Below are positions 34,312 to 64,000 of a DNA stretch of 64,000 bases, one piece after another. The translations under genes were made by a program, and so were the position numbers. This stretch comes from Antedon mediterranea (Eukaryota; Echinodermata; Crinoidea; Comatulida; Antedonidae): NCBI RefSeq assembly GCF_964355755.1, contig NC_092672.1:33104501-33168500 (forward strand), given 5' to 3'. How positions within the stretch are numbered: position 1 is the stretch's first letter; every line of letters begins with the position of its first letter. Under the pieces are notes generated by a model that worked only from the letters and a program-made list of their open reading frames with translations, had not been told where the DNA came from and did not search any database.

Positions 34312-34670
34312 TCACCACTGCCAATAACAACGTATGTTGTAAGAAATTAAAAAATAAGGGTAAAACTGCATTTCAATGATCTCAACTTTGTTCGCCGCTG
34401 CATACTCTTGGACGGTTGGTGAAACTCTTGCACCTTTCCCAACGGCGAGTACAGCTTTTCCATTCCCTCTTGCGGTATCCGCTACTTGATCAACACAAGC
34501 TTTGTCAATTTTTGATTGAGTTTTGGCTTCCCATACCTGGTTACCTCTTACGAAAAAAATCAGCTTGCTTTCCGTTCATTGGGACTTCTAAATTTGACGT
34601 TAGAGCTGCCGAAACGGTCACACAAATACTTTCCAACTTGCCTCTGAAACCAATATCCACGGTTTGCCAT
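34312..34670 (-). pseudogene. Nuclease-like (PD-(D/E)XK) family member with frameshift
   Basis: Minus strand, starting MANRGY at 34670 just after an AG acceptor (TTTTTACAG, exon start 34681). The first 24 residues match the intact gene at 57723-58034. One extra base in the segment after S-S-N-V shifts the frame and gives a stop after about 37 codons. Beyond it the other frame still carries the Q-A-D-F and W-E-A-K signature and the S-P-T-V segment, in order. The rest is well preserved, so the break looks recent, or a sequencing error is possible. Confidence 0.7.
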
Positions 34671-35158
34671 TTTGTTTTGTTCTGTAAAAACAATTATCAA
34701 TAGCAAACATATGAATAAACAAGAGAGATATCCAAAATATATAATCAATTATACTTTTCAATAGTTGGTTTTGTAAATCCATGCAGAGATCATCATCGAC
34801 TAAATCTTAATGCAATCAAACGTATGCCATAAATGACAGTCTCCATACACCTACGCTCTACACCTGCCTCATTCAGTTTCTATGTAGACCATATCATTTC
34901 TTCTGAAAAGAAGCTGCTATCCAAAGGAAAGGGTTGGGTGAATTATAATCCGTCGAGTACTGGATGTCTAAACTTTGCAAGGGACGTACAGTTATCGTAC
35001 CCGTTATAGTATTTTATAACTAGTACTGAATTGTTTAACTTCAGTAATATAAAATTTCAATTTCAATCAATTTTTAAATTAAAAGTAACTTATTTGAACT
35101 ACTGTGTATAATAAATATAACTATGATATATCAATTTGGTAAACAATTTTACTCTTAC

Positions 35159-35372
35159 CTTTTTTTAAAATTAATTCTCAACTTCTTCGAAACTGAAGTG
35201 ACTGATAGCAAAAACACGTTCGAATAACATTAGTATTGTCTTCTGACTAAACTTAAAATATGCTTACAGGATACCGAAAAGTGACACTATGTGCTGATTG
35301 GTTAAACATTTTCCTGTGATACAGAGACTTTTTTGTTTAAACTTAACATTACTTCATTCTGGAAAAACCAAA
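35159..35372 (-). promoter_or_regulatory. Upstream exon and promoter module for the 34.3-kb locus
   Basis: On the minus strand a donor AAAAG|GTAAGAGT ends at 35159 and pairs with the acceptor at 34682-34683. Upstream is a module shared with the loci at 37.6, 38.9 and 58.7 kb: GGTTTTTCCAGAATGAAGTAATG, then about 50 bp on AACCAATCAGCAC (a CCAAT box). Confidence 0.6.
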
Positions 35373-36003
35373 ATCCTAGGAAGTAGGCGCTATGCCAGTA
35401 TTGTATCTTTTTTGTTAGTACTGTATAAAAAAGACAATTTAATCGAACGAAATACAACTATATTTAGGCCTATAAGCTTTTAGAGGTTTTAAAAAACAAC
35501 ATTCAAATGTTATACATTTATTAGTATAATTCTTGTGATTATGTGTATCATGATAAAATACTAATACTCTGGCTCTTAGTTTCCAAAGCAAACTAATTTT
35601 TGCAAGATAATTTGCTTATAAATTATACTTTATTTGTAAGATATTTAATAATTTGTATTGGTATCATTAGTATCACTTCAAAAATTCAATTCAAGTAAAC
35701 ATTTTAAATTCTGAGATTTTCTTTTCGAGAAAAAAAAATTCACCAGTATCTTCTCAATTATCTTCAACAATCATTGTAATAATCCATTATCATAATCATT
35801 GCATATCACATGATTTATTATATTTTGTTAAACCTTATTCAAACCTTACCAGCAACACATCTGATTGATCAATCATGGGTCATTATTATTTTTGTTACTA
35901 CCATTCAGTTTTTACGTCATCGTAATATTATTTTTTTTCGTCATCGTAATTATTATTTTTTTTGGTCATCGTAATATTTTTTTTTCATTAGTAATAATAT
36001 AAT
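35373..36003. other. AT-rich noncoding stretch
   Basis: No gene is seen. Simple repeats of ATTATTTTTTTTCGTCATCG type lie at 35880-35990. Confidence 0.4.
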
Positions 36004-36302
36004 AATAATACCACATTTATATAGCGCCCTTTTCATGAGTAATCATGCTCAAAGGCGCTTTACAAGCATTATTACCCCAGTATTTTTTTGAGATCAAACA
36101 CGTATGGAAACATACTCCCATAATGCAGCCGGTAACCAGCGCAAAGTTGTGTCTAGATCTAACTGGGTACCCATTTATACACCTGGGTGGAGAGAGGCAA
36201 CGTAAGTAAAGTATCTTGCCTACGGATACAAGCAATGCGGATTCGAACTTAGGTCTGACGATCAGTAGTCCAACGTCCAACACACTGCGCCACACGCCCT
36301 TT
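36004..36302 (-). mobile_element. tRNA-derived SINE
   Basis: Fullest copy of the family. Minus-strand head GGGCGTGTGGCGCAGTGTGT (A box), then a B-box region around AAGTTCGAATCCGC, the CACCCAGGTGTATAAATGG body and the tail GGGCGCTATATAAATGTGG with an (ATT)n run. Confidence 0.8.
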
Positions 36303-36665
36303 CAGTAATGTAATGTCATCGTCCATCAAGATTATATAAAAGAGAGCGTTTTTTCGTTATACACATTGTGGTATTGCACGTACGTATCAATATGGTATCA
36401 AAATGACATGAATTGAACTTAAAGGGTTTTAACATACACTAGTAAACAGTAAACTGCGTCTTGTTAATTCAAGCGCAGAAAAACAAAAATCTCATCATCA
36501 TCATCATCATAATCATCATCGCGTCACCTACATTTTGTATGTAGTCCCGTCAATCAAACTGACCAATATAACCTACTTTTTAACAATTAATAATTATTTC
36601 TATGTTTAGTAAAACTTAAATCTACTAGTACTAAAAATTTAACGTTGGTTGTGAGCAGTAATATG

Positions 36666-36983
36666 TCAATTGAAAGGCATTCTGACAACCTCTACGCCGT
36701 TAGCTGCAGCATGCTGCAGAACGGTTGGTGAAATAGATGCATCTCTCCCGATAGCAAGCACAGGTTTCCCCACTCCACTTGCAATTCTTGCTGCTTGAAA
36801 AACATGCTCCTTTCTAATCTGCGATGAAGACTTGGCCTCCCATATCTGGATGCCGCTTACCGCATTGACGACAAAATCAGCGCGACTGTTGTTCATTGGT
36901 ACCTGTGATCTCACGTCACTGTATTGGCTGGCCAGGTAACTGCCAACTTGACCCTCAAATGATGCTCCATGGTTATGGTTCAT
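36666..36983 (-). CDS. Small PD-(D/E)XK nuclease-like protein, 105 aa, intact
   Basis: A single coding exon preceded by an acceptor (TATTTTCAG, exon start 36988), so a 5' UTR intron is expected. Visible: G6-x-x-F9-E10 in a first helix, R-A-D36-F, then I-W-E49-A-K51, giving D-x12-ExK. This is the catalytic layout of the PD-(D/E)XK fold. A late segment D-A-S-I-S-P-T-V and a strand ending R-M-P-F-N follow. The size equals one bare nuclease domain. The layout resembles endonuclease-fold domains at the C-termini of bacterial Rhs-type polymorphic proteins, but that is recognition by eye, not a search. It has no signal peptide or membrane segment, so is probably intracellular. It lies 170 bp downstream of a degraded sister copy and has no promoter module of its own. 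Confidence 0.65.
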   Translation of the reverse strand: MNHNHGASFEGQVGSYLASQYSDVRSQVPMNNSRADFVVNAVSGIQIWEAKSSSQIRKEHVFQAARIASGVGKPVLAIGRDASISPTVLQHAAANGVEVVRMPFN

Positions 36984-37153
36984 TTTTTCTGAAAATATTA
37001 ACGTTTAGAGTAATCATTTTCCCAGACATCCTCTGCACTCGAACCATTTTCTACCACTATAATTTGGAATTGTTTTTCTTCTAACAACAGGCCCTACAAC
37101 CTAACTTCAATTAATTTAACACACAATTTCTCTATTCTTTCTAAGAAGAAGAG

Positions 37154-37429
37154 TTAACATTTAACCTTACTTTCAGATTTGTTGCCAAAATTCTTTCGAA
37201 TGATCTCAGCCTTGTTTGCAGCTGCATGCTGCTGGATGGTTGGTGAGACCGTTGAACATTTCCCGATGTTGTGTATAGACTTTCTGCCTCCTGCGGTGGC
37301 CACAAGTGGTACAAAATACGCTTGTCTTCCGTTCATAATTGACACTTTTGGCTGGACTTGAGAGCTACCAAAGCGATCACACAAATGTTTCCAAACTTGC
37401 CTCCAAAAATAATATCCACGGTTCGCCAT
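37154..37429 (-). pseudogene. Degenerate nuclease-like copy lacking the catalytic signature
   Basis: It starts MANRGYYF after a TTCTACAG acceptor (exon start 37430) and keeps the first half of the family and the late V-S-P-T-I segment. The conserved Asp is replaced (R-Q-A-Y-F) and the W-E-A-K block is deleted in frame. The frame stays open for about 91 codons. It may be a dead copy or a product with a non-catalytic role. Confidence 0.65.
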
Positions 37430-37551
37430 TCTGTAGAAGAAATGTCTAGCGGTCACATTCTATCCTTGGAATGAGGACTTGAAAATGGGGTTGGGATGAG
37501 TCTCGGTGCTAATTGTTCGTTATAATAAACGTGAACAAATAAAACACTTAC

Positions 37552-37750
37552 CTTTAAAGTATGTTTCTAAAGCGACACGAACATGATCAAATTATCATGA
37601 TTTTCTTCTGGCAAAACTGTAAATATCTTGTTAAAACTTAGAATGGTATAAAATCTTCAAGTGATGATTGGTTAAAACTCTTCCTGTTATGATACAGAAA
37701 CTGCATATTTTGTTGAAATCAAGCATTACGTAATTCTGGAAAATCCAAGA
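37552..37750 (-). promoter_or_regulatory. Upstream exon and promoter module for the 37-kb loci
   Basis: Donor CTTTAAAG|GTAAGTG ends the exon at 37552. Upstream on the minus strand is GGATTTTCCAGAATTACGTAAT (kappaB-like GGATTTTCC next to the bZIP site TTACGTAA), and AACCAATCATC lies nearer the exon. It could serve both 37154-37429 and, by alternative splicing, 36666-36983. Confidence 0.6.
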
Positions 37751-38378
37751 TATTTGTAATATAAACGGAAACAAGAATCAGGCGTTATGTCAGTTTTATT
37801 TTTTTTAAATATGTAATATGCTTTATTCTCGTTAAACTGACTTATTTAAGTAGTAACAGTAGCAGTATTTAATTTATTATTTTGTTAGTAAAACACAAAT
37901 TCACATTATTTATTCAAACTCGAAGAAATATACAAATATGACTGTACTTATCAAAACAATTTATTTTATATATATTTATTTGCCTGTTATATAGGTAGCT
38001 AGAAATACAAGTGTCATTTTACTCGCAATAGGGGACCTATTTTTATTTACATATTTTTAAATGATTAAATAATCTCATGAAGCATCGTCTTTTGTTAATT
38101 ATTTATTTATTAATGTTTTTTGTCCAAGCACAGGAACAATTTGGACGGTCGCAACTAGTTCTTAATTTGTTACAAACGCCCTCTAAAAAGTTAAGAATCT
38201 TCACACGCTCTGGTTGTTGTCTACGGACGAAATTTGTTTACGATTTTAACAATCATGCCCTCATCTATGCCTTTATGATGTCACGTGTTCTTGTTGCCGC
38301 CACACCTCAAATCGGCAAATCATAATTCTTTTTTAAAATATTGTTGCCTACAGTTTTCTGTTCGAACGGAAGTGTTCA

Positions 38379-39469: not shown

Positions 39470-41010
39470 ATTCTAAGCAAGAAAAAAAAATCTTGTTTTA
39501 AGAAAAAATTCTTAAAATAAGTATTTTTTTTCTTGTCAAGATTTAAAATTACTTAAAACAAGAAATAATTTTCTATAAAAGACACATTTTCTTAAATTAA
39601 GTTTTGCAATATTCTTGAAAATGCTTATTACAAGAAATATTTTACTTAAAATAAGAAGTCAATATCATTCTCTTCTTATTAAGAATAGTTTTGCTTAAAA
39701 CAAGATTTGAAAATAATTAATTTGAAAAGTATTTTACTTAAAATAAGAAATCAATATTATATTTATCCCTATCAAGAATAATTTTTCTTAAATCAAGATT
39801 GATGAATTCTAAAAATTACTTAAAACAATAAATATTTTTCTAGGTAAGACAAAGTTTCTTAAATTAGGTTTCGCAATATTCTTAAAAATACTTATTTTGA
39901 GAAATATTTTACTTAAAATAAGAAGTCAATTTCACACTACCCTTATCAAGATTATTTTTACTTGAATCAAGATTCGCAATATTCTTGAAAATGCTTATTA
40001 CAAGAAATATTTTACTTAAAATAAGAAGTCAATATCATTCTCTTCTTATTAAGAATAGTTTTGCTTAAAACAAGATTTGAAAATACTTAATTTGAAAAGT
40101 ATTTTACTTAAAATAAGAAATCAATATTATATTTATCCCTATCAAGAATAATTTTTCTTAAATCAAGATTGATGAATTCTAAAAATTACTTAAAACAATA
40201 AATATTTTTCTAGGTAAGACAAAGTTTCTTAAATTAGGTTTCGCAATATTCTTAAAAATACTTATTTTGAGAAATGTTTTACTTAAAATAAGAAGTCAAT
40301 ATCATATTATCTTATCAAGACTATTTTTGCTTAAATTGAGATTCGCAATATTTTAAAAAATACTTATTTTGAGAAATGTTTTACTTAAAATAAGAAGTCA
40401 ATATCATACTATCTTATCAAGACTATTTTTACTTGAATCAAGATTCGCAATATTCTTAAAAATACTTATTTTGAGAAATGTTTTACTTAAAATAAGAATT
40501 CAATATCATACTATCTTATCAAGACTATTTTTGCTTAAATTGAGATTCGCAATATTTTTAAAAATACTTATTTTGAAAAATGTTTTACTTAAAATAAGAA
40601 GTCAATATCATACTATCCTATCAAGACTATTTTTGCTTGAATTCAGATTCGCAATTTTCTGATTTTGAGAAATGTTTTACTTAAAATAAGAAGTCAATAT
40701 CATACTATCTTATCAAGACTATTTTTACTTGAATCAAGATTCGCAATATTCTTTAAAATACTTATTTTGAGAAATGTTTTACTTAAAATAAGAAGTCAAT
40801 ATCATACTATCTTATCAAGACTATTTTTGCTTAAATTGAGATTCGCAATATTTTTAAAAATACTTATTTTGAGAAATGTTTTACTTAAGATAAGAAGTCA
40901 ATATCATACTATATCCTATCAAGACTATTTTTGCTTGAATTGAAGTCAATTCTATTTTAATATTCTTAAAAATACTTATTTTGAGAAATGTTTTACTTAA
41001 AATAGATTGT
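39470..41010. repeat. Left subterminal repeat array
   Basis: A 370-bp duplication (39606 and 39976 share GCAATATTCTTGAAAATGC) is followed by about seven 102-bp monomers with ACTTAAAATAAGAAGTCAAT, TCAAGACTATTTTTGCTT and TCGCAATATT. Open frames inside are by-products of the repeat. Confidence 0.85.
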
Positions 41011-41639
41011 CAATATCCTTATATTCACACAACGGTAGAGCAGTTAGCACTTCAGTTTCAACTGATGAAAGAATCTGGGTAATCAAACTGTTTGTGCTTT
41101 GAATAATCGATTGCACTGCAACCTAAAGAAAATAATATTGATTTAATATTTTTTATATTCAAGTTTTAATATGTTTAAAAACTAAGTTGTGCTTTAGTTG
41201 GGGAGCTATGCAGCCTAACAAAAAAAATGTTATTTGTAACAATGAAATTGGTCACAAAAAAATGCAACATAAACTTAGCGTGTATAATGCCTAGGCCTAG
41301 TACCCAAGTCCTATAGTTACTATAGCTAATAGTCCTGTATAATAACAGTACCAGCAAGGCCTAGGAAATCGACGTATTTCTCTAATAAAAAATAGTTTAA
41401 AATGCATAATTGTTGTAATTTTAAAGCAAAATGGCTAGTACCTGCGGAATCTTGTTTCTCTCCTTTAATTTTAGTAGAAAGACATCAGCATTTTTTATAC
41501 TATTATCTGCTTGTTCATCCTCTAGTTAGTAGGCCTTCTTGCTGAGCATCAACAAGATCATTAATATTAATACAATCATTAACAGTATAACAATACTAGA
41601 ATTATCACTACTACTATCGTCAGTTGATAAATCATCCCC

Positions 41640-44699: not shown

Positions 44700-46570
44700 A
44701 TCGTTCTTAAAATAAATTTTTAATGATTTATATTTTATAGAATTCTTGTTTCAAGCAATTTTTTTCCCAATATAAGTAAGAATTTACGAATTTTAATTTG
44801 ATAGAATTCTTGTTTCAAGCAATACTTTTCTTAAAATAAGTAAACATTTACTGGTTTTTATTTGATAGACTTCTTGTTTACTTATTTTAAAAAAAGTTTT
44901 GCTTGAAACAAGAATTCTACAAATAAAAATCGGAATATTCTTACTTATTTTAAGAAATATATTGCTTGAAACAAGAAAACTAAAAATATAAATCGGAATA
45001 TTCTTACTTATTTTAAGAAAAATATTGCTTGAAACAAGAATTCAAAAAATACAAATCGGAATATTCTTACTTATTTTAAGAAAAATATTGCTTGAAACAA
45101 GAATTCTACAAATAAAAATCGGAATATTCTTACTTATTTTAAGAAATATATTGCTTGAAACAAGAATTCAAAAAATACAAATCGGAATATTCTTACTTAT
45201 TTTAAGAAAAATATTGCTTGAAACAAGAATTCAAAAAATACAAATCGGAATATTCTTACTTATTTTAAGAAAAATATTGCTTGAAACAAGAATTCAAAAA
45301 ATACAAATCGGAATATTCTTACTTATTTTAAGAAATATATTGCTTGAAACAAGAATATTAAAATTAAAAATCGGAATATTCTTACTTATTTTAAGAAAAA
45401 TATTGCTTAAAACAAGAATTCTAAAAAATACAAATCGGAATATTCTTACTTATTTTAAGAAAAATATTGCTTGAAACAAGAATTCTACAAATAAAAATCG
45501 GAATATTCTTACTTATTTTAAGAAATATTTTGCTTGAAACAAGAATTCAAAAAATACAAATCGGAATATTCTTACTTATTTTAAGAAAAAAATTGCTTGA
45601 AACAAGAATTCAAAAAATACAAATCGGAATATTCTTACTTATTTTAAGAAAAATATTGCTTGAAACAAGAATTCAAAAAATACAAATCGGAATATTCTTA
45701 CTTATTTTAAGAAATATATTGCTTGAAACAAGAATATTAAAATTAAAAATCGGAATATTCTTACTTATTTTAAGAAAAATATTGCTTAAAACAAGAATTC
45801 TAAAAAATACAAATCGGAATATTCTTACTTATTTTAAGAAAAATATTGCTTGAAACAAGAATTCTACAAATAAAAATCGGAATATTCTTACTTATTTTAA
45901 GAAATATATTGCTTGAAACAAGAAAACTAAAAATATAAATCGGAATATTCTTACTTATTTTAAGAAAAATATTGCTTGAAACAAGAATTCAAAAAATACA
46001 AATCGGAATATTCTTACTTATTTTAAGAAAAATATTGCTTGAAACAAGAATTCTACAAATAAAAATCGGAATATTCTTACTTATTTTAAGAAATATATTG
46101 CTTGAAACAAGAATTCAAAAAATACAAATCGGAATATTCTTACTTATTTTAAGAAAAATATTGCTTGAAACAAGAATTCAAAAAATACAAATCGGAATAT
46201 TCTTACTTATTTTAAGAAAAATATTGCTTGAAACAAGAATTCAAAAAATACAAATCGGAATATTCTTACTTATTTTAAGAAATATATTGCTTGAAACAAG
46301 AATTCAAAAAATAAAAATCGGAATATTCTTACTTATTTTAAGGCAGATACTGCTTAAAACAAGAATGAAAAAAGCAATTAAATTCTTGGTAAGAATATTG
46401 TTCTTAAAGTATTATTTCTTGGTAAGAATAATTTTTTTGATAAGAATTTGTGTGATTCTTGTTAAGAATTTTACGATTCTTGGTAAGCCAAAAAGTATTG
46501 AAATACGGACAAGTCAAAATTTACTTGTTTCAAGAAATATTTTGCTTGAAACAAGTTTTTTTTTTCTTAA
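44700..46570. repeat. Right subterminal array of 63-bp monomers
   Basis: From 44880, more than 25 monomers of 63 bp: TTGCTTGAAACAAGAATTC, an A-rich segment, AAATCGGAATATTCTTACTT and ATTTTAAGAAAAATA. The left 44700-44877 part is in the opposite orientation, so the array turns around at about 44878. Because 63 is a multiple of 3, long chance ORFs with a 21-residue period arise; I do not treat them as genes. Confidence 0.9.
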
Positions 46571-46602
46571 AACAAGAATCAGAATTTTGCTGTGTATGCA
46601 TC

Positions 46603-47641: not shown

Positions 47642-50600
47642 ATGTGCCAATCCAACCCTACAACTGATGTGAAATTTAACCCCTTTGTGGCATACGAGAA
47701 CATGAATATTAACGAAAATGTTGATCCACATTCTCAAGTTTATGCTAGTTTAAATGAATCTAATTATTTTGATCCAGAAACATTCTCAGAGAATTTCTCT
47801 AAGCATAACAATGATAAAAATATTTTGTCTACTATCCATTTTAATACACGTAGTCTCTTGGGCAAGATGGATTCTTTAAAACGTTTTCTTCTTACTCTTG
47901 AATTTGACTTTGATGTTATTGCTATTACTGAATCTTGGCTACAGTTTGACAATAATCCCCTAACAGATATGCCAGGTTATAATATTTTTTCTAGAAATAG
48001 GAAATCTAAGGCGGGTGGTGGCGTAGCCCTATACGTACGAAACAATGTATCAGTTACTGTCCGTAATGATTTAACAACAGATGAATCAATATGTGAATCG
48101 ATATTTATTGAAATAGAACAGATACATGGGAAAAATATCATCGTGGGAACAATCTATCGTGCTCCGTCTTTGAATATCAATGCATTCAATGATATCCTAG
48201 ATAACCTACTTCATACTCTTTCAACTGAAAATAAGCTGGTATATCTGTTGGGTGATTTCAATATAGATATTTTGCAATATACTTATGAAACCACAACTAA
48301 CAATTTTGTAAACACTCTTTTTAGCAACTTTTATTTACCGCTAATACTTAGACCTACTAGGATAACATCAAATAGTGCTACTCTTATTGATAACATATTA
48401 ACCAACCAGCCTGATTTACACCTCGCTAGTGGTCAGCTCTATTGCGATATTTCCGATCACCTACCTGTTTTTTCTATATCTACCTTAACATACAAAAATA
48501 ATCAAGCAGTCAGTAGACCTCCAAATAAACCTTTTAGGAAAATTAATGAAAATAACATCGAACAATTTAAACGAGAGCTTAGCGTAATAACATGGAACGA
48601 TGTGAACTTATTGCAAGAACCTAATCAAGCTTATAATACTTTTGAAACTAAATTAAAACTTTTATATAATAAACATTTTCCAATGACTACGCAAAGTAAA
48701 AAAAACACAAAATTAAAACCTTGGATGTCAAATGGTCTGTTGCAATCTACTAAATATAAACACAAGTTATATGCTAAATACCTAAATAATCCTACCAATC
48801 ATAATAAAATAAAATACACTAAATTCCGTAATACCTTAAATTCACTTATTAAACGTGTTAAAACCGAATACTATCAAAACAGATTCACTCAATGTCAACA
48901 TGATATTAAAGGTACTTGGCGCGTAATTAACTCCTTGATTAAAAGGTCTCCGAATTTGAATACGAAAGTTGTTCTAACAGGCAATAATGGTGAATCCATT
49001 GAAGACCCGTCTCAAATCGCAAATGAATTCAATAAGTTTTTTGTCGAAATTGGACCAACTCTTTCAAAAAAATTGCCAACCGATCAATCTGATTTTAAAA
49101 CGTATTTGCCCTTACCTACTTTAAACTCTTTATTTATGTGTCCAGTGTCTGATACAGAAATTATAGATATTGTCAAATGTTTTAAAACTAATAAAGCGCA
49201 AGGACTTGATGAATTCAGTCCAAAAGTTATTAAACAATCAATTTCCCTTTTGGTTAAACCTCTATGTCACATATTTAATCTGTCTTTAACAAAAGGAGTT
49301 TTTCCAAATAAATTGAAATTGGCAAGAGTTACTCCCATCTTTAAAGCAGGAAAAAAGGACACTTTATCTAATTACCGACCGATCTCAGTCCTTTCGCTAT
49401 TTTCTAAAATATTAGAAAGAATTATCTATAATAGAACCTATGCCTTTATGGAAAAAAATAATATTCTATTCAATAAGCAATTTGGATTTCGCAAACATTT
49501 TGATACCGCAATGGCCTTAATTGATTTGTCCAATGAAATAATAGATGCATTTGAAAATGATGAGTTTGCAATTGGTGTTTTTGTCGATCTATCGAAAGCA
49601 TTCGATACCATTAACCATCCCATTCTTCTTTCAAAACTGTATCACTATGGTATTCGCGGTGTTCCTCTCAATTTATTTAAGAGCTATTTATCTAACCGCT
49701 ACCAATGTACCAAGTTTTGTGATTCCCAATCTGACTATTTGCCTATTACCTGTGGAGTACCACAAGGTTCATTACTAGGTCCTCTTCTGTTTCTTTTATA
49801 TGTGAATGATATTTACAATTCGTCAGTATCTTTATCTTACTTTTTATATGCAGATGACACAACACTAATCTGTAAAAATCGACACTTAGAGTCGTTATTT
49901 AACACTGTAAATACAAGTTTAATTAATGTATCCGAATGGTTTCTGGCAAACAGCCTTTCTGTAAATCTAAAAAAGTGCAGCTATGTTTTGTTTAGAAGTA
50001 GTACGATGCCGATTAAATTAGGTCCATTGCAAATTAAACTAAATGGTTCTGTTCTCCCCATGGTCAATCATGCAAAATTTTTGGGTGTATCCATTGATAG
50101 TCGTCTGACATGGAAACCCCATGTTATTGAGACAGAAAACAAAATCTCAAAAAATATTGGTATAATTTGTAGACTGGCATCTTTTCTTCCACATCATATT
50201 CTCCGAACACTCTACTGCTCCCTTGTTTTGCCATATCTTTTATATTGCAATATCGTTTGGTGTAACACATTCCCATCTAATTTAAATAAACTTCAAATAC
50301 TACAAAAGAAAATCATTCGAATAATTTCGAATGTTTCACCTAGAACTAGTACAGATCCTTTATTTCGTTCTCTCAAATTATTAAAATTAACAGATATTAA
50401 TATTTTCCAACAATGTTTATTTATTTACAAAAGCCAAAATGCTCTTCTTCCATCTCATTTACGCGATATGTTTTCTCCCAATTATGAATTTCACGGCTAT
50501 TCCACAAGAATCCTCAATAACCTTCATATTCCTAAACATAAAAAGACTTCTTTTCAACATAATATTAGATTTACTGGACCCAAGATATGGAACTCACTTC

Positions 50601-50674
50601 CTAACAAAATTACAACTTCTGCAAACAAACATAGCTTCGTCTTTAACACTAAACAATATCTAATACAAAAGTAA
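47642..50674 (+). CDS. Non-LTR retrotransposon ORF2, endonuclease-reverse transcriptase (1010 aa)
   Basis: An uninterrupted frame. N-terminal AP-like endonuclease: F-N-T-R-S-L, I-T-E-S-W-L, L-L-G-D-F-N-I-D and S-D-H-L-P-V carry the expected catalytic Glu, Asp-Asn and Asp-His. Reverse transcriptase: P-I-F-K-A-G-K-K, N-Y-R-P-I-S-V-L, F-V-D-L-S-K-A-F-D, G-V-P-Q-G-S-L-L-G-P and Y-A-D-D. A C-terminal domain ends with G-P-K-I-W-N-S-L-P. This order fits the CR1/L2/Jockey side of non-LTR elements; the clade is inferred. Its length and intact motifs suggest recent activity. The C-terminus is homologous to the fragments at 10265 and 17905. Confidence 0.92.
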   Translation: MCQSNPTTDVKFNPFVAYENMNINENVDPHSQVYASLNESNYFDPETFSENFSKHNNDKNILSTIHFNTRSLLGKMDSLKRFLLTLEFDFDVIAITESWLQFDNNPLTDMPGYNIFSRNRKSKAGGGVALYVRNNVSVTVRNDLTTDESICESIFIEIEQIHGKNIIVGTIYRAPSLNINAFNDILDNLLHTLSTENKLVYLLGDFNIDILQYTYETTTNNFVNTLFSNFYLPLILRPTRITSNSATLIDNILTNQPDLHLASGQLYCDISDHLPVFSISTLTYKNNQAVSRPPNKPFRKINENNIEQFKRELSVITWNDVNLLQEPNQAYNTFETKLKLLYNKHFPMTTQSKKNTKLKPWMSNGLLQSTKYKHKLYAKYLNNPTNHNKIKYTKFRNTLNSLIKRVKTEYYQNRFTQCQHDIKGTWRVINSLIKRSPNLNTKVVLTGNNGESIEDPSQIANEFNKFFVEIGPTLSKKLPTDQSDFKTYLPLPTLNSLFMCPVSDTEIIDIVKCFKTNKAQGLDEFSPKVIKQSISLLVKPLCHIFNLSLTKGVFPNKLKLARVTPIFKAGKKDTLSNYRPISVLSLFSKILERIIYNRTYAFMEKNNILFNKQFGFRKHFDTAMALIDLSNEIIDAFENDEFAIGVFVDLSKAFDTINHPILLSKLYHYGIRGVPLNLFKSYLSNRYQCTKFCDSQSDYLPITCGVPQGSLLGPLLFLLYVNDIYNSSVSLSYFLYADDTTLICKNRHLESLFNTVNTSLINVSEWFLANSLSVNLKKCSYVLFRSSTMPIKLGPLQIKLNGSVLPMVNHAKFLGVSIDSRLTWKPHVIETENKISKNIGIICRLASFLPHHILRTLYCSLVLPYLLYCNIVWCNTFPSNLNKLQILQKKIIRIISNVSPRTSTDPLFRSLKLLKLTDINIFQQCLFIYKSQNALLPSHLRDMFSPNYEFHGYSTRILNNLHIPKHKKTSFQHNIRFTGPKIWNSLPNKITTSANKHSFVFNTKQYLIQK

Positions 50675-52450: not shown

Positions 52451-53904
52451 CAAAGAGGTAATCTGCACTGATATTTAAACATTTAGATTTACGAACGACG
52501 TATGAATGCGAGACACTGAGTTGCACTTACTTAATTATTTACATTAAATGATTATTATAAATGAAGAAATAAAAGATATTCAAATTAAAATCTATAGTAT
52601 CGCCGACGATATATACGTAAATTCGTATTTTTCATACTGTCAAATTATAGAAAAAGTGCTTTATTCGGAATTATTACCGTATGGATAAGCAAGCCTGTGA
52701 GCTACAGCGATTTTAATTGCTTTTGTTTTCCTTGCCTCCTTATATTTCCACGTGTCTTGATTTGGTTACCTATGTTTTAAATGTATTTCGATTTTAAAGG
52801 CTAAATAAAGAATGAATGAATGAACATGATCTCATAATCGCGTCGAGCATCTATAGCTCATTGGATCGTTTCACAAAAACACGTGCAGGAGGCCTATAGA
52901 CGTTTCAAACATGGTTATTAGTAATAGACGTCATCTTTACTTCGCCATGGACAACGATCGTACGTGTTTTGTCCACGATTTGACACACTAAACAAGTGCG
53001 TGTTTTTTAAAAAGGGGAAACCCCGTCAGCAAAATAACGTATTGTTAGAGGAAACAGCTGCACGATCATAGAAGGCGCATCTCCAATATGGCTTATTTGG
53101 GGGTTTATTTCAGTAACTCGTCTTTTTTAACCATCCGCATATAATGATCATTTTACTAAAAACTATTTTAAACATTAGAGATAAAAGTATACACGTGATT
53201 TGCCTCAACAATAATCATTATACACTTAATATTATCCTACATAACGGATAGAAATAAAATAGAAATAAAAATAAGGTGATCGAATTGTATGTTGTTAACG
53301 ACATGGATATGATATAATCTGCCACAGTATGCATAAGTAAAATGGATACGCTGGCCTTATGGGCTATATTGTAAAAATTATTGTTTTTAAATAAATTGTT
53401 CTCTTACGTAATTGTTTGCATAATAAAAGACACGACAGACGTATATTCTCTACATAATATATTAATTACAGTACATATAAATAGAGGTAAATTATGATAT
53501 CTAATATAACATTATGCCTAATATAATATTTAAACGTGTTTAGAAATGGCCATTTTGAAAAGACACAGTCCTTCTCCGAGACCTGTGAAATACAAAAAAA
53601 AATTAATTAATTTAATGATTGATAATAAATATTTATTAACCAAGTAAAAAATATCCACATAAATAATCTAGTTACTACAAAATATCAATTAAATCTACAT
53701 AAACGAAAAATGTATATCCCGCTCTAGCATGCATCCCGCTCGATCCATACAAAATAGCGCGACCGATTTCAAACGTGACCGATATAATCAAAAGTATAGC
53801 TCTAGCGGCGCGCCATACAAAATACCGGAAGTTGATTTTATCGCGACCGATTTCAAACGCGACCGATTTCAGACGCGACCGATTTCATCGTAAACCCCAA
53901 GAGT

Positions 53905-54258
53905 CACCATATGATCCGTGATAGCCGAGCTGTGAAACTTTTCTGACGCCGACTTTCTGCTTGATCTGGTTGAAACACCTTTGCATTGTTCTACAACTTC
54001 GGTTTTATGTTCTTTGATCCTGGTCTTCAGCGCTCGTCCTGTTTCTCCAACATACATACTATCGCAGTTATGACAGTTCACTTGATATAACACACCACAC
54101 AATGCATCGCATGCAGATAGAGCAGTTCTTATGATTTTAACTTCATTCTCTTGTTCTTTCTGCGTGGAAACAACATTCTGACATCTGTCCACACGTGTGC
54201 TCACAACACTCAATTTATTTTGTAATGAGTGACATGAATGAAAGTGTAAATATTGGTT
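53905..54258 (-). pseudogene. Penelope-like element, linker and GIY-YIG endonuclease, part 1
   Basis: The minus-strand frame starts T-N-Q-Y-L-H-F-H-S-C-H-S, then V-L-Y-Q-V-N-C-H-N-C, M-Y-V-G-E-T-G-R and R-I-K-E-H-K, a GIY-YIG-type nuclease with its Cys pair, ending at T-D-H-M-V-T-L-G, where the long-TIR element interrupts. The upstream part of the protein lies at 56132-56915 beyond a second insertion. Confidence 0.88.
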
Positions 54259-54266
54259 GGTATGGG

Positions 54267-56123
54267 ACCTCAGTGGTGGCGCCAGCGGGGGGGCTACGGG
54301 GGCTCTAGCCCCCTCGTCGGGGAGCCTAGCCCCCCCCCGTCGGGGAACACGGGTACTTTTTGTCGGGGAATATAACATACAGTAAAAAAAATTCACGTTC
54401 ACTTCATATAGCTTCAGCGCCTAGAAAACCACGACGTTCCATTGACCGTGAGAGTACGTCAGAGGGCTATTATGCACTTTTATGCATTCGTTATTGCCAG
54501 AGATCTAACTACTAAACAATAGCTAGTACGCACTTGTTTGGCGGTATCCCTTTGTACGAATCGTTTACCGTTGGATCGAGACGCGTGATATCATGTTCCA
54601 TCCAGGGACCAAAATGTGTAATGTAGTTATTTTCCAGGCGAAGTTTACCGACGGTTACCGAAGGGAACACGGGTACTTTTTGTCGGGGAATATAATATAC
54701 AGTAAAAAACGTTCGCGTTCACTTGGTAGCTTCAGCGTCTAGAAAACCGCGACGTCTCATTGACCGTGAGAGTACGTCAGAGTGCTATTATGCAATTTAT
54801 ATGCATTCATTATTGCCAGCGATCTTACTACTAAACATTAGCTAGGTACGCACTTGTCTGGCGGTATCCCTTTGTACGAATCGTTCAACGTTGGGTCGAG
54901 ACGCGTGATATCAAGTTCCATCCAGGGACCAAAATGTGTAATGTAGTTATTTTCCAGGCGAAGTTTACCGACGGTTTGGGTACTTTTTGTCGGGGAATAT
55001 AATTCGTTCGCGTTCACTTCGTAGCTTCAGCGCCTAGAAAACCTCGACGTTTCATTGACCGTGAGAGTACGTCAGAGTGATATTATGCACTTTATATGCA
55101 TTCATTATTGCCAGCGATCTAACTTACTACTAAACAATAGCTATAGGTACGCACTTGTCTGGCGGTATCCCGTTGTACGAATCGTTCAACGTTGGGTCGT
55201 GATATCATGTTCCATCCAGGGACCAAAATGTGTACTGTAGTTATTTTCCAGGCGAAGTTTACCGACGGTTACGTCGTGTACTGTGTCGACGTGCGCTACA
55301 CTACAGCAAAAACGAATTATGTTAATTGTTCGTATGTTCACCAATTTTTTAATTTACAAGTAACCTTCTGTACCGTGGGGCACCTAAAATAAATATTTCA
55401 TCCATTACTAAACAAAAAAACATGCCATTTTCGCGTAGCCAACATCTTATTATAGCTAAGTTATTAAATTTTCAATGTCCTGATGTCATGAATTTCTCAC
55501 CACTCGGAAGTCCAGATGGTACGCAGGCATACACTTGGGAGGAATAAACTTATTTCCCCGACTGAAAAAGGTCTACGCTTGCGTTTTTTAAGCCTCTGGG
55601 CCTGATGTTTCCAAAGTATAAAATGCAATTTTTTGAAGACCTGCAGCTCTAGTTTTAAACATTTTCTTAGCTCAGCCCCAACAATAAAGCTGGTCATATT
55701 TCGAAGTACAAGAAGTGCATTTTCCGGGACCTAACATCTCTATTTTTCAAACACTTCTTAGCTCAGTCACAACCATGATAGGGACTTATATATTTTGTTT
55801 TATGTTTTGAAGTATAATAAGTCCAATTTCCAGGACCTCCAACTCTATTTTTCTAAATTTTCTTTGAACTTTTATTTTTTAAATTGAAAAATATGGATTG
55901 AAACAGTCATCGCGCATCGTTTTTTTGCACGCAGTATTTTATTTATGCATTATAAAAAATGGAAAAAATGGCTACCCTAAATCTGATTAAAATGACCTCA
56001 AATGACGCTAGAACGCGTTGCTTCCGGGGGCTGGGCCCCCTGGCCCCCAGCCTTGTGATGCTCGCATAGCCCCCTCGTCGGGGAATGTAGCCCCCGCGTC
56101 GGGAAGATCCTGGCGCCACCCCT
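54267..56123. mobile_element. hAT-like element splitting the Penelope element
   Basis: The ends CAGTGGTGGCGCCAGC and (complement) AGGGGTGGCGCCAGG are inverted; GGTATGGG flanks both sides (54259-54266, 56124-56131), an 8-bp duplication. CCCCCTCGTCGGGGA-type GC-rich arms sit near both ends. The interior has three tandem copies of about 310 bp. No transposase is visible. Confidence 0.8.
54345..55275. repeat. Three ~310-bp tandem copies within the hAT-like element
   Basis: GGGTACTTTTTGTCGGGGAA recurs at about 54351, 54669 and 54978. Each copy carries TGACCGTGAGAGTACGTCAG, GGCGGTATCCC and TTTTCCAGGCGAAGTTTACC. Confidence 0.85.
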
Positions 56124-56131
56124 GGTATGGG

Positions 56132-56915
56132 TAGGTTTTCTGTAAACTGATGTAGTAATTGTGTTGTCAATGAGTGAAATGGAGACGTCTAGGAAAGGTA
56201 TAGTGTTATTAGTCATATGTTCTGTTGTGAAAGTGATGTTGTGTGTGGGATTGAGTTAAGATGATAATTAAGGTTGTCAGCAGCTCCTTCTGGAACAACT
56301 GCTAACACGTCATCTACATATATTTTCCATATCAGTGGCTTAATTTCTGTTTTAAGTGCTTCCTCTTTTAGCCATTCTAGAAACAGGTTCACCACAATAG
56401 GGCTCACTGGGCTTCTATTTGTTTATAGAAGTATCCGTTGAAGCTGAAATAGGTGGTATTTATCAGAAGGGACAGCAATTCTAAAATGTCATCGACGGAG
56501 AGATTTGTACGTTCTTTTAAGTCATCATCATTTTCTAGTTTTATTCGTATGATTTTTAATGCTAATTCTGTGGGTGTCTTGGTGAATAGAGATACAACAT
56601 CGTACGAGACAAATGTGTAGTTCTGTGGACATTTAACGTCGCAAGTTCTTTAACTAAGTCTTTGGAGTTCTTTACATGATGTATAGTATTTCCAACTAGG
56701 TGCTCTAAATATCGGCAAGGGTTTTTCCTCTAAGTTATAGTATATGGAGTTGATGCAGTCAACAATAGGACGAAGCGGTACATTCATTTTGTGTATTTTT
56801 GGAAGGCAATAAATTCGTGGTTTTCCTTCTGCTGTAGGGAATATTCTTTTTTGCTCTGATTTACAGCATTTAATTTTAATTTGTTGATAGTGAAACACAA
56901 ATTCAACATTCCTAC
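56132..56915 (-). pseudogene. Penelope-like reverse transcriptase part, 5'-truncated
   Basis: Minus-strand pieces: P-R-I-Y-C-L-P-K-I-H-K, then P-L-R-P-I-V-D and Y-Y-N-L (RT motifs 1-2 of Penelope-like elements), Y-V-D-D-V (catalytic Asp pair), and N-N-T-I-P-F-L-D-V-S-I with S-V-Y-R-K-P-T-H leading to the insertion site. Several frame changes and the missing N-terminus show it is dead. Confidence 0.85.
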
Positions 56916-57722
56916 GAAATACAACTAAAAGCTTTAATTTATTTAAATTTTAAGACATTTACAAATAATAATGATTATTATTATGAATTATACAATAATC
57001 AAAACACCTGATGATTGATACATTTATTTGTTTTTGTATATATTTGTATTGTCGGAGAATCCTTCTTCACATCTTTAGGTCTAATTCTAAGATCGATTCT
57101 TTACAAATTATCTTTGTGATATTTATCAGCTTCTTTTATCCTCATTATAAAAAAAACTGAATATAAAAACTGAATAATAAACACATGGGCATCTTTAAAT
57201 CACATGATCTATACATTTCGTGAATCCAGAGCCAATAGCAATAGAAGCCTATCTTTATCTACATATTATATTAAACATTATTAATTAATCGCATGACTCA
57301 TCTTCATCTGCTGCTGTCAATAGGGTCTGTTATCGTCATTCTTGCTGTTAATAATCATTATCATTAATTTTTTTATTTGCAAAGTATTGTAAATTTAAAA
57401 AATGTTCTAAAATTCGACAAATTTATCGAACAACATATTTTTTTTAAGAACAATAAGATTGACTCATGGAACAAAAAATGGAACCTTTTAAATCTTGATT
57501 ATAAGTAATCATATTAAGTTTGAATTGACAGAGTGGTTTTATTTGTTTTTAATTTATGATTTTTTTTGATTTATGATCTGACAGACGATGTGTTACAAAA
57601 AGTATTATAATACTAATGTTGATAACATGAAATATACACCGTCTTTTTAAAATGTTGCGTCTCTACTAATAACTAATATTATGATAAACAGAACATAACA
57701 TTAAAAGCAGTACAAGTACATG
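56916..57722. other. AT-rich noncoding stretch
   Basis: No gene, tandem repeat or clear element end was recognised between the Penelope truncation point and the nuclease-like gene. Confidence 0.4.
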
Positions 57723-58034
57723 CTAATTAAATGTCATTGGAGCGATCTTAACTTTTTTCTCAGCAGCATACTGTCGGACGGTTGGTGAAACTGATGCATC
57801 TTTGCCAACGGCGAGTACAGCTTTTCCATTCCCTCTTGCGGTATCCGCTACTTGATCAACACAACCTTTGTCAATTGTTGATTGAGATTTGGCTTCCCAT
57901 ACCTGGTTACCATAAACGTGAAAATCGGCTTGTCTTCCGTTCATTGGCACTTCTGTTCTGACGTTAGAGCTACCAAAACGGTCACGTAAATACTTCCCAA
58001 CTTGCCCCTGAAAAGAATATCCATGGTTCGCCAT
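57723..58034 (-). CDS. Small PD-(D/E)XK nuclease-like protein, 103 aa, intact
   Basis: One coding exon after an acceptor GTTTACAG (exon start 58050); the donor lies at 58597-58598 (TTTAAAG|GTAAGCG), giving a 5' UTR intron of about 550 bp. The protein has G5-Y-S-F8-Q9, R-Q-A-D37-F, then V-W46-E47-A-K49, a D-x9-ExK signature, and K-D-A-S-V-S-P-T-V-R. It is the best match to the frameshifted locus at 34.3 kb. The early Glu seen in the 36.7-kb protein is Gln here, which may weaken metal binding or be tolerated. It has no signal peptide. Function is inferred from motifs only. Confidence 0.68.
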   Translation of the reverse strand: MANHGYSFQGQVGKYLRDRFGSSNVRTEVPMNGRQADFHVYGNQVWEAKSQSTIDKGCVDQVADTARGNGKAVLAVGKDASVSPTVRQYAAEKKVKIAPMTFN

Positions 58035-58597: not shown

Positions 58598-58810
58598 CTT
58601 TAAAATGTTTCTAAAAAGTTTGCAATGAGTTGGCAGTGAATATGAAGTGGGTTGATAACAACACGTCGAATGTGTAAAACGTATATCGTGTTTACAAATT
58701 AACCGTAACAGTAACAATGCTGATTGGATAGAATTGTTCCCGTGATAGAAAACGCGCATATTTATGTCTAAATATAAACATTACATAATTCTGGAAAAAC
58801 CCAATAGGGC
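58598..58810 (-). promoter_or_regulatory. Noncoding exon and promoter module of the 57.7-kb gene
   Basis: On the minus strand: TTGGGTTTTTCCAGAATTAT, GTAATG, an AT-rich gap, then a CCAATCAGCATTG box, and the exon ending at 58598. It aligns with the modules at 35.3, 37.7 and 38.9 kb. Confidence 0.6.
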
Positions 58811-59209: not shown

Positions 59210-59365
59210 TATAATTCTGACAATCTCTGCGCATGCTGTACAACTGTGCCTGAAATAGGTGCATCTCTCCCCATAGCAAGCACAGGTCTTCTACTTGCAA
59301 TTCGTGCTTCTTCAACAATTACTCCTTCCATCTTCGGTGAAGACTTGCCCTGATATATTGGGTAT
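59210..59365 (-). pseudogene. Fragment of a nuclease-like family member
   Basis: The minus-strand frame shows G-K-S-S-P-K, A-R-I-A-S, P-V-L-A-M-G-R-D-A and a V-Q-H-A segment, closest to the second half of the 36.7-kb protein. The W-E-A-K block and the first half are lost. Confidence 0.65.
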
Positions 59366-59407: not shown

Positions 59408-61519
59408 AGCCTGTTTTCCTGTCGACGTTATTCGACGCTATCGTCGTTGATCGTTAACAGTTCAACGACGATCGTTTAAAAACGATATATATATAAACTT
59501 TATTTAGACACGAGACTGATGTGCAGTACAACTCGTTCAATCAATATTGATTGTTTTTACACAAGTTCGTGATACTGTATTACAAAACAAAAAAAATCAA
59601 CACCATATAAATACAACAGAAACGAAAAAAATTGAAATTGAAAAGAAACAAAATTACAGCAGAATCCCCTTCATCTGACACCTCTATTTAGGGTACACCA
59701 TACCGGTACTTCCCGTGTAAACGGAAACCCTTATCGAAGTGTATAATTCATGGGGATTCAACTGTAATACATAATAAATCTTTTGGATTTCATTGACGTT
59801 AAAATAATAGTGATAAAACACACATTTTACATAGTATTTAGCCATTTTAAAAGTTGGATGTAGATCGTAGATTACCATACCATTATGTTTTACAATGCAT
59901 TTTTCAGATACGTTTTAAACAACTTAACTGAATTTGGAAGGGTATCAACATTGAGACTATTCCATATAATTGCTCCACGATAAGACAGACTTCGTTTTTT
60001 AAAATCGGTTTTTGGCTTTGGGATGAATAGATGTGTATCACTGTTCCTTAGATTATAATTTATATCCTTGAATGTAAATACATTATTTAGGTAAGGTGGG
60101 GCATTATCTGTCAAAACCTTATATATAACCATACAACATTCATATCTATCTTGATAAAATAAAGGTGACCAATTAATTTGCCTTAGTGCCTCACTACTAG
60201 GTGTGTCCCATGTTAGACCACACACGATTCGAGCTGTTCTGTTTTGTATAGTTTGAACTCTTTTCATTAGAGTTTGACTACTATTTCCCCAAATTATGTT
60301 ACAATAGCTCAAGTAAGGTATTACAATAGAGTTTGCAATATGTTTTAATATGTTTTGTGGAAAATAATAGCTACATCGTCTAAGCATACCCAATCCATTT
60401 AGAGCTTTACCTCGAATGTATTCAATCTGATTTTTCCATGATAAATGTTCGTCTATTATGATACCGAGATGTTTGCAATATAGAACGCGTGGTACAACAT
60501 CGTTATCTATATTAACTGATCTATTTTTTTCTTTGGTGGTTGCCAATCGGTTTGTCGATCCGATCAACATGAACTCGGATTTAGAGACATTTAGACTCAA
60601 TTTATTATTTTTTAGCCAATCGTCGATTTGTATAAGTTCTTCATTTATACTTTGGTATATTTCATTTTCATTTTTTGAAGAACAATAAATTATAGTATCG
60701 TCAGCATACATACTTATTTTACATTTGTTTGCAACTTTCGATAGGTCATTTATATATAAGAGGAAAGCAAGTGGGCCCACGATTGACCCCTGAGGCACTC
60801 CACATTGGATGTGTGTATAGTCAGACAATGTATTATTTACATTTGTGAATTGCTTTCGCTCAGACAGATAGCTCTCGAACCATTTTAAAACATATTTACT
60901 TAAACCATAAAGTCTCAATTTGCTTAATAGTATGTTATGGTTTACCGTATCAAAGGCCTTTTTAAAATCTAGTAAACAGATTCCGACCAGCTTACCCTCG
61001 TCTATTGCACTATACCAGTCTTCCGTCACTTTTGTAAGTGCAGTAGATGTTGAGTATGATGGTCGAAAACCTGATTGATTTATACATAACAGATTATTAT
61101 TATTTAAAAAAGCATAAAGTTGATTAAAAACGACTCGTTCAATTATTTTTGAAAGTATAGGTAGGACGGAAATGGGACGATAATTATTAGGGTTAGTTTT
61201 TTCACCATTCTTAAAAATTGGCGTGACCTTTGCTATTTTCCACGTATTTGGGAATTTACATGTTGTGAAGGAGTGATTTATGATTCTTGTAATTGTTGGG
61301 GATATAATCGGGGCAGACAGTTTTAGAATGCCCGGTGGTAAGTTATCATGACCAGTGGCTTTGTTTTTTGAAAGATTATTTAAGTATTTATATACAAATT
61401 CACATGTGATGTGTTCGAATTCAAAATTATTTTCGGTGAAAGCATCGATTTCGATAAAGTTGAAGATCGCCGATTATTGTTAACGATAGCATCGACTAAC
61501 GTCGACAGGAAAACAGGCT
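59408..61519. mobile_element. Harbinger-like MITE interrupted by a LINE
   Basis: The left terminus AGCCTGTTTTCCTGTCGACG plus GCTATCGTCGTTGATCG and the right terminus GATAGCATCGACTAACGTCG plus GGAAAACAGGCT are the two ends of the MITE seen whole at 63011 and 63240. They are separated by the LINE at about 59488-61433. Confidence 0.75.
59890..61433 (-). pseudogene. 5'-truncated non-LTR reverse transcriptase (open C-terminal part)
   Basis: The minus-strand frame is open from about 61433 to the stop at 59890. RT motifs: G-H-D-N-L-P, P-I-F-K-N-G-E-K, N-Y-R-P-I-S-V-L-P, L-D-F-K-K-A-F-D, G-V-P-Q-G-S-I-V-G-P, M-Y-A-D-D-T. A C-terminal domain follows with R-T-A-R-I-V-C-G and I-W-N-S-L. The endonuclease and start are missing. 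The family differs from the ORF2 at 47642. The 3' UTR reaches about 59488 with an AATAAAG signal and a TATA-rich tail (minus strand). Confidence 0.88.
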
Positions 61520-61521
61520 TA

Positions 61522-63007
61522 AGGCTGGTTTCCTGTCGACGTAAGAACATCACTTTTGTTGCGACTACGTCGATTTGTCGTAAGAAATGCAGATTTTACA
61601 GGAAACCGATTACGATCGAAAATTTATAAAATCGACGCAACGTAAGAAAAATGGTAACGACAAACGATTTTACAGGAAACCGATGACCTAACAATTGTTG
61701 CGTTACGACGTTTTCTTCCGATTTTACAGGAAACCGGGATTTTTGATCTTACGCTTGAATGAACGCCCTTGCGTCACGTTTCTTACGTCTCTTACGAAAG
61801 TTGACTTGAAGTCAACTTTCGCAAGAGACGTAAGCGCAATCGTAACAAGCAACCAATAAGCGACAAGAGTTATGACGTAATGTGTATGACCTTATAGTGA
61901 AATAAAGCCGGACAATAACATTTGTATGTATTTACTACTATAATTTTAGCCCACTTTACAATGTTGTACATACTTTACAAATGCACAGTATAGTTTCAAT
62001 ATAATAATGTTCTAATCAGGGAGTTTACAACTCATATCAAAATATAATACACTTATTTATGGACGTGCAATAAACAATCAGCATTTCAAAGAAACCGATA
62101 TTCTTCTGTTCTATTTGTCGGTAGAAACGTCGCGAAAGGTGAACATTTGCAACAAGATAAGATATAGAAAGCCCCTTTGTAAGCAATATAATATCATTAT
62201 GTAACTTTAAAAAAAAAATGTTTGCTTGATTTTGTATAATTTATATTGTTTTGTTAAATTTATTCTTATTATAGGCCTGTAAATAATGGGTATCTTACTG
62301 CGGTAGTACTATCTCATGCTCGATTAGAGTATGCCTGGGCCCATAGGCCAAGGCCTAGCCTAGGGCATAAGTAGGTCTAATAATAATAGGAATCCCGAAA
62401 TGATTTGCCTTTTTTTAATTTTGAAAACTATTTAAGGCTATAGGCCAGAATAATTCATTCATATTTTGATTCATACAATAGTAGCCTGCATAGGCCTACT
62501 AGCCTAGGCTCCTAGGCTAGTTTGGTTAGATTTTGGTCAAATAAATTCCTATTAGTACAGTATTAATCATGGAGTAAGTATTATTACTAATACTAGGGCC
62601 TAGCCTATCTACTAAAAATAATATGTTGGTGTGCTGCACTGACACTGCTGCTGAGTAGCTACAGGTACAATAACAACATTCAACATTTCGCGCGAAAAAT
62701 GATAAAACCCGCTCTAAAAAGAAACACCAATCAGAGATGTTGTTTCAAATACGTCATAAATCTGACCGACGTAAGAAAAAAATTTCAACTTTCGTAACAA
62801 CACTAAAATCGACGTAAGCATACGACGTGTGTTTCACAGCCAAAATTTCAACTTTCGGGAGCAGCATAACTACAGATGTTTCTCTGTGGCCCGACACGAT
62901 CTTGACTAACGTCAACGACGTCAATTTTTCTCAACTTTCGTAAGAGACGTAAGAAACGCAAGAATCGTTGCAAAATTCGACTTCTTACGTCGACAGGAAA
63001 CCAGCCT
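61522..63007. mobile_element. 1.5-kb TTA-flanked element, Harbinger-like
   Basis: The ends AGGCTGGTTTCCTGTCGACG (then TAAGAA) and its inverse are perfect over about 26 bp. TTA flanks both sides (61519-61521, 63008-63010), the duplication of the PIF/Harbinger group. Internal copies of TTTTACAGGAAACCGAT at 61600-61740 and a hairpin at 61784-61836 are present. There is no transposase ORF. Confidence 0.8.
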
Positions 63008-63010
63008 TTA

Positions 63011-63203
63011 AGCCTGTTTTCCTGTCGACGTTATTCGACGCTATCGTCGTTGATCAACGACGATCGTTTGGAAACGATCAACTTGAAATGATGACAATAG
63101 CGAGTACCTTTTCCTGTAAATCGTTAACATTTCCATGTTTACGTAGATGATCGCCGATTATTGTCAACGATAGCGTCGACTAACGTCGACAGGAAAACAG
63201 GCT
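63011..63203. mobile_element. Harbinger-like MITE (193 bp)
   Basis: AGCCTGTTTTCCTGTCGACG and its inverse, with TTA at 63008-63010 and 63204-63206. The inner arms carry CGACGCTATCGTCGTTGA-type sequence. Confidence 0.85.
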
Positions 63204-63239
63204 TTAGCTAAAGAGTTTGGCGACTCACAATGCCTCTTA

Positions 63240-63436
63240 AGCCTGTTTTCCTGTCGAAGTTATTCGACGCTATCATCGTTGATCGTTAACAGACGATCGT
63301 TTAAAAACCATCAAGTTGAAATGATAATGATAGCGAGTACCTTTTCCTGTAAATCGTTAACATTTCAATGTTTACATAGAAGATCGCCGATTATTGTTAA
63401 CGATAGCATCGCCTAACGTCGACAGGAAAACAGGCT
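63240..63436. mobile_element. Harbinger-like MITE (197 bp)
   Basis: Same family as 63011-63203; TTA flanks at 63237-63239 and 63437-63439; shared interior GAGTACCTTTTCCTGTAAAT. Confidence 0.85.
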
Positions 63437-63524
63437 TTAGCTATAAAGTTCGGAGACTCATAATGCCTCTAGGTTTAAAATCTGATTATACCAAATAGTT
63501 GTGCCCTCTTAAGCTGTCATGTCT

Positions 63525-63802
63525 ACCACTATCAAACTAAACTTTGAAAAAGTGTGATATGCCAAAATATGGTAGCGATTATGCTTAAATATGGTAGCGA
63601 TATGCTTAAATATGGTAGCGATATGCTTAAATATGGTAGCGATATGCTTAAATATGGTAGCGATATGCTTAAATATGGTATTGATATCAAAGATTGTATT
63701 ATGTATCGGCGCTATACAATCTTTGGTGATACGGCCAAATGTGGTAATTATATGACATCATCAAGTCCATGGGCACGTCAATAAAGTTTGATAGTGTAGA
63801 AA
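63525..63802. repeat. Foldback with a 21-bp tandem repeat
   Basis: CACTATCAAACT at the left and AGTTTGATAGTG at the right are inverted. Inside, five copies of GATATGCTTAAATATGGTAGC (21 bp) lie at about 63560-63680, then a hairpin whose arms are CAAAGATTGTAT and ATACAATCTTTG. Confidence 0.8.
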
Positions 63803-63955
63803 GAGTTGCAGACTACAGATTTATATTGTCTCTAACATTCTCTCCACAATGATTCATCAACCAATAATATTTTGCCATGGATTTATAATCTTTATGTATA
63901 AATATTATCTACAAATGCCAATTACGTATATCAACGAATAGTAACAATATAAGTG

Positions 63956-64000
63956 TTAGTTAAATAACATTCGAATGATCTCAACATTGTTCGCAGTAGC
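63956..64000 (-). CDS. Nuclease-like family member, 3' end only (runs off the window)
   Basis: The last codons on the minus strand, A-N-N-V-E-I-I-R-M-L-F-N before TAA, match the ends of the 57.7-kb and 36.7-kb proteins. The catalytic part lies outside the window. Confidence 0.6.
   Translation of the reverse strand, partial: ATANNVEIIRMLFN

Follow-up and report, generated by a model that had tools for sequence, protein, structure and literature searches.

What are the short, mutually similar minus-strand reading frames that recur along one stretch of this animal genome, and do they work as genes? A preliminary description of that stretch (the window: all 64,000 nucleotides of C3:33104501-33168500) had proposed a cluster of tiny nuclease-like genes. 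On balance we favour the view that they represent a lineage-specific animal family of minimal stand-alone PD-(D/E)XK-fold proteins that would act as inducible nucleases in conflict or stress. The genes, on contigs C3 and C7, are likely to make up an animal family of minimal PD-(D/E)XK proteins that is new, probably one of nucleases.

Copies of the family and their state

The genome (354 Mb, 18 contigs) was searched with three family members as queries. Each query returned the same short list of nine copies; with a fragment recognized at the DNA level, there are 10 detectable copies, eight on C3 and two on C7. Six of the C3 copies lie within or reach into the window, and two lie just beyond it. 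The six minus-strand loci recognized in the preliminary description are true homologues, with within-genome E-values of 1e-65 to 2e-4 for every locus except the fragment at 59 kb, which was matched at the DNA level (Table 1). The two reading frames reported there as intact, at 36666-36983 and 57723-58034, are both present. In all, six of the 10 copies are intact: A, B, C and E on C3, the last of these beyond the window, and a cluster of two on C7 (c7a at 23581300 and c7b at 23640264). Their products, each of 102–113 aa from one coding exon, are as far apart as 40% identity.

Table 1. Features of the window, with positions counted from its first base
Feature	Position	Strand	Remarks
Copy F, decayed	34363..34670	-	three indels relative to copy B (two net frame changes); stop codon gone
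Copy A, intact (P0001, 105 aa)	36666..36983	-	coding exon; splice acceptor 5 bases upstream of ATG
Copy X, decayed	37175..37429	-	catalytic ExK block gone; C-terminus enters exon-1-like sequence upstream of A
Copy B, intact (P0002, 103 aa)	57723..58034	-	coding exon; splice acceptor 16 bases upstream of ATG
Fragment of A/E-type copy	59231..59351	-	ExK motif onward, with indels; seen at the DNA level
Copy C, intact	63956..64000	-	C-terminal codons and stop in window; whole copy C3:33168459-33168770
Promoter element of copy F, GGTTTTTCCAGAATGAAGTAATG	35347..35369	-	followed by CCAATCA and donor AAAG|GTAAG
Promoter element upstream of X and A, GGATTTTCCAGAATTACGTAATG	37724..37746	-	with CCAAT box and exon-1 donor
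Promoter element of copy B, GGTTTTTCCAGAATTATGTAATG	58779..58801	-	CCAAT box ~74 bp and exon-1 donor ~200 bp further on
Reeler array	6971-7501, 15345-15737, 23433-23738, 30302-30586	+	partial repeats at 12722 and 20733
LINE-type ORF	47642-50671	+	endonuclease and reverse transcriptase; open over 1010 aa
Second LINE-type RT ORF	59893-61473	-	
Probable Penelope-like element remnants	53872-56949	-	weak GIY-YIG match, RT-like fragments
Long tandem arrays	44878-46373 and 39537-41017		63-bp unit, ~24 copies; ~102-bp unit; open as repeated ORFs

The decayed members have been disabled in different ways. Copy X lacks the ExK block, as had been noted, and copy D, beyond the window on C3, is interrupted by a single in-frame TAG, two residues past the ExK lysine. 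Copy F (34312-34670) had been credited with a single-base frameshift; comparison with copy B reveals instead three indels (one base lost, two gained and then one more gained), and the reading passes through three successive frames. The copy that was seen to leave the window does extend past its edge, where it is intact, and copies D and E lie farther on. The indels, the lost block and the TAG, found among intact members, support the proposed process of birth and death.

Selection on the surviving copies was estimated from pairwise dN/dS, which was 0.19–0.50 for all estimable pairs except A/E (0.55). For five of the six pairs tested, dN equalled or exceeded dS in 0–3 of 1000 bootstraps; for A/E, the youngest and closest pair, neutrality was not rejected (80 of 1000). 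Purifying selection therefore operates in most comparisons. Between C3 and C7, synonymous sites are at or near saturation, which indicates a long history of the family in this lineage.

Conserved residues and predicted fold

The six intact copies share an invariant D-x(9-13)-E-x-K motif and a following Q; the invariant residues include N4, G6, F9, Q12, V13, A35-D36-F37, Q46, W48-E49, K51-S52 and Q63. A late S-P-T-V segment had been put forward as part of the family signature, but the homologous segment reads SPTV, SPTV, PPTV, SQTV, SDDV, SKTV or SEHV, and only the last V is invariant. Helix 1 carries a Q where many PD-(D/E)XK relatives have E. The proteins are basic (predicted pI 8.3–10.7) and have no other domain and, as judged by eye, no evident signal peptide, a combination suggestive of an enzyme that acts on nucleic acids inside the cell, as a dimer or with a partner.

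Searches of profile libraries, including Pfam, NCBIfam, PHROGs and PADLOC, gave no match above threshold, and matches in NCBIfam, PHROGs, PADLOC and PDB sequences were at chance level. In Pfam and PADLOC, matches below threshold to SfsA, Cas4 and PDDEXK_9 all fall on the D/ExK block; against the Pfam models for these three families they reach 12–15 bits, where the curated cut-offs are 22.7–25.5.

The structure of P0001 was predicted from an alignment of window sequences only. The model (pLDDT 80, pTM 0.74) has the order α-β-β-β-α-β-α-β (H9-20 E24-31 E34-41 E44-51 H58-68 E73-78 H86-94 E98-101), with D36 in strand 2, E49-x-K51 at the end of strand 3, Q12 and Q63 in helices 1 and 2, respectively; pLDDT was 56–69 in four of the five P0001 models. 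The P0002 model has the same element order but is poor (pLDDT 66), and its structural comparison, which gave no convincing match, is uninformative. The alpha-beta-beta-beta-alpha-beta core that defines the superfamily is thus present in the P0001 prediction and weakly so in that of P0002, and the D and (D/E)-x-K on strands 2 and 3 are invariant in the intact copies.

When the P0001 model was compared with solved structures using VIA-align, the best match was EndoMS/NucS (Z 10.6 over 93 residues at 2.7 A), and the other neighbours include 2vld (9.8), AF1548 (9.3), VC1899 and Cdn1 (both 8.3), Can2 (8.2), EcoT38I (7.8), SfsA (6.9), RPB5 (~6.5) and MspJI (6.4); because a best Z of 7–8 is common by chance, according to the tool's own warning, only the first few of these neighbours stand clear. 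The best matches are at 10–20% identity, and the top rows are mostly PD-(D/E)XK members. Foldseek returned no match with E below 0.001; its TM scores were ~0.5–0.74 for Cdn1, Can2, MspJI and phage restriction endonucleases. HIV integrase cores also appeared in the Foldseek list, with TM of 0.28–0.36, below the nuclease values, and an RNase H fold was rejected on this ground.

Judged from the predicted element order, the placement of the motif and the sub-threshold profile matches on the D/ExK block, these proteins very probably have the PD-(D/E)XK fold. The proposal of a stand-alone domain of this type is thereby strengthened.

If they do, there is a good chance that they are active nucleases; that D, E, K and Q are all invariant speaks for catalysis having been kept. 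Some proteins with this fold, RPB5 among them, have lost catalysis and serve a binding or inhibitory role. The presence of RPB5 among the structural matches, together with the Q in place of the helix-1 glutamate, would suit a similar non-catalytic module here, but conservation of D, E and K in all intact copies makes this improbable. In the reading that we prefer, D36, E49 and K51, with Q12 and Q63 near, would form a divalent-metal site at which phosphodiesters of nucleic acids are hydrolysed, as expected from fold and motif. Having no extra domain, the protein is likely to act as a homodimer or together with a partner.

A family-specific promoter module and the probable gene structure

The coding exons of the family are preceded by a recurrent arrangement. 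Some 390–1090 bp upstream of the ATG lies a 23-bp element, GGTTTTTCCAGAATGAYGTAATG, followed ~40–75 bp on by TATCCAATCA and, a further ~120–155 bp on, by the donor AAAG|GTAAG. With up to two mismatches allowed, the element occurs eight times in the 354 Mb, every time beside a family member, while the reversed element, used as a control, occurs once and our own arithmetic gives a chance expectation of ~0.1 occurrences. The module varies among copies: in c7a the box reads CCAATTA, the element is present twice in D and the CCAAT box twice in c7b, and the promoter of copy C is degenerate, with a partial element and neither CCAAT box nor donor. Between B and D the upstream block is 74.5% alike over 251 bp and the coding exon 72.6%, whereas the intervening intron cannot be aligned. 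Because both clusters have the promoter element and the intron position, these features predate the split between C3 and C7.

A splice acceptor lies 5–25 bases before the ATG in every intact copy. Acceptor-to-ATG distances are 5, 16, 11, 12, 16, 9, 24 and 25 bases, with no common phase; c7a has a second possible acceptor at 1 base, a distance also seen in the decayed copy X. Since the phases differ, no coding exon shared among the copies could be joined on from upstream. The ATG, which lies within AAAATGGC in several C3 copies, is likely to be the translation start. Taken together, these features of the DNA strongly suggest that each gene has a single coding exon, separated by an intron from a non-coding exon 1, under a promoter module private to the family. 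The promoter element, the non-coding first exon with its donor and the acceptor in varying phase indicate that the members are probably spliced, stand-alone genes.

This bears on the alternative that the coding exons belong to a mobile element or form the final exon of some larger gene. Retroelements are abundant in the window (Table 1) and a splice acceptor precedes all the coding exons, which speaks for such a reading. However, there are just two clusters in 354 Mb, the promoter element is restricted to the family, and the varying phases allow no read-through from a shared upstream coding exon. We consider both versions very improbable, and rejected them because the copies are few, the promoter is private and the phase is not shared.

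Between 37154 and 37750 of the window, one promoter module is common to X and A, and the frame of X enters an exon-1-like stretch that has its own donor. Copy A may therefore be spliced from either of two exon-1-like donors.

Within the 23-bp element are a dyad, TTCnnGAA, and a bZIP-like site, TKAYGTAA, beside the CCAAT box. Read as letters only, they suggest stress- or signal-regulated transcription.

Neighbouring genes

In the window, the nuclease cluster is adjoined on the plus strand by Reeler-domain genes in a tandem array of repeated exons; one ORF of this array was tested and matches PF02014 (E 5.6e-9). On the far side of the cluster, on C3 beyond 33174 kb, are minus-strand exons resembling those of ionotropic glutamate receptors (PF10613, PF00060). 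On C7, a gene for a large GTPase of the URGCP/VLIG type (approximately C7:23633353-23637900; PF25496, E 6.5e-66; PF25683, E 8e-43) is convergent with copy c7b, a position that is no evidence of function.

Possible roles

Conflict genes show this pattern of clustering with birth and death, which is by itself no evidence of function. From this genomic behaviour, the proteins could be inducible intracellular nucleases deployed in host conflict or stress, for instance against foreign nucleic acid. A role in defence or stress is a guess from clustering, decay and neighbours that we consider less likely than not. Still more tentative is the fuller version, in which an inducible single-domain nuclease family with immune-effector-like birth and death and a private promoter is possibly a domesticated prokaryotic conflict nuclease directed against foreign nucleic acid.

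The top structural score, that of the EndoMS nuclease domain, and the basic pI would suit a DNA repair or recombination nuclease (acting on mismatches, junctions or flaps, and nearest to EndoMS/NucS in structure) whose gene was duplicated by chance. We regard this as unlikely: repair genes do not usually form clusters of fast-turnover copies with several of them decayed, as found here, the proteins lack the N-terminal domain of EndoMS, and Z reports fold rather than function.

Tandem single-domain PD-(D/E)XK genes with rapid turnover are, as far as the literature and libraries searched show, apparently undescribed in an animal. If active, these proteins would rank with the smallest members of the superfamily known in animals. 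The promoter private to the family offers a direct way to test the timing and place of expression, and with them the choice between defence, stress and repair.

Origin and comparison with known systems

The preliminary description had likened the layout to endonuclease-fold domains of bacterial polymorphic proteins. With the REase domains of bacterial polymorphic toxins the family has the superfamily and its general layout in common, but membership is not supported, and the family has no Tox-REase profile match. Published signatures are GxxxE, IxD, ExK and Q for Tox-REase-7 and GxxxQ, DD and QxK for Tox-REase-8 (PMC3482391). In contrast to the former, the family has Q12 in helix 1 without GxxxE, ADF for IxD and no Pfam match; in contrast to the latter, it has ExK instead of QxK and ADF instead of DD.

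Could the family descend from a prokaryotic or phage gene, the lateral origin with later intron gain that the preliminary description considered possible? An REase-fold domain of effector or toxin type would have been acquired long ago, gained a 5' UTR intron and a promoter, duplicated and been co-opted by the host. A polar helix-1 residue, D, ExK, Q and then strand-helix-strand also occur in REase-fold toxin clades, and most of the closest structural neighbours are nucleases of prokaryotes. Entry of REase-fold toxin domains into animals has a precedent in Tox-REase-8, reported in crustaceans, insects and Trichoplax (PMC3482391). Against this, no significant relative was found among 84,980 prokaryotic species genomes of GTDB, or in IMG/VR contigs, phages and plasmids, searches that reach near relatives only; the Tox-REase profiles do not match; and the saturated or nearly saturated divergence between C3 and C7 means that any transfer was old. 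We consider such an acquisition possible but doubtful. A literature search found no description of the C3/C7 gene family.

The CRISPR ancillary nucleases Can2, Card1 and Cdn1, and VC1899, have a nuclease domain that matches the P0001 model (Z 6–8, a range that chance matches also reach), yet the family here is without their CARF sensor domain and shares ~15% identity with them. EndoMS/NucS, the archaeal and actinobacterial mismatch endonuclease, supplies the nuclease domain that is the best structural match, at 11% identity. Unlike this two-domain enzyme, the 102–113 aa ORF corresponds to the nuclease domain only, and lacks the N-terminal dimerization and DNA-binding domain. We know of no EndoMS/NucS in animals. 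From the PD-(D/E)XK superfamily as a whole, the family is set apart by the absence of any known family profile above threshold, by its minimal size and by its occurrence as clustered animal genes; it shares with the superfamily, as predicted, the alpha-beta-beta-beta-alpha-beta core, the D of strand 2 with the E-x-K of strand 3, and the Q on the next helix.
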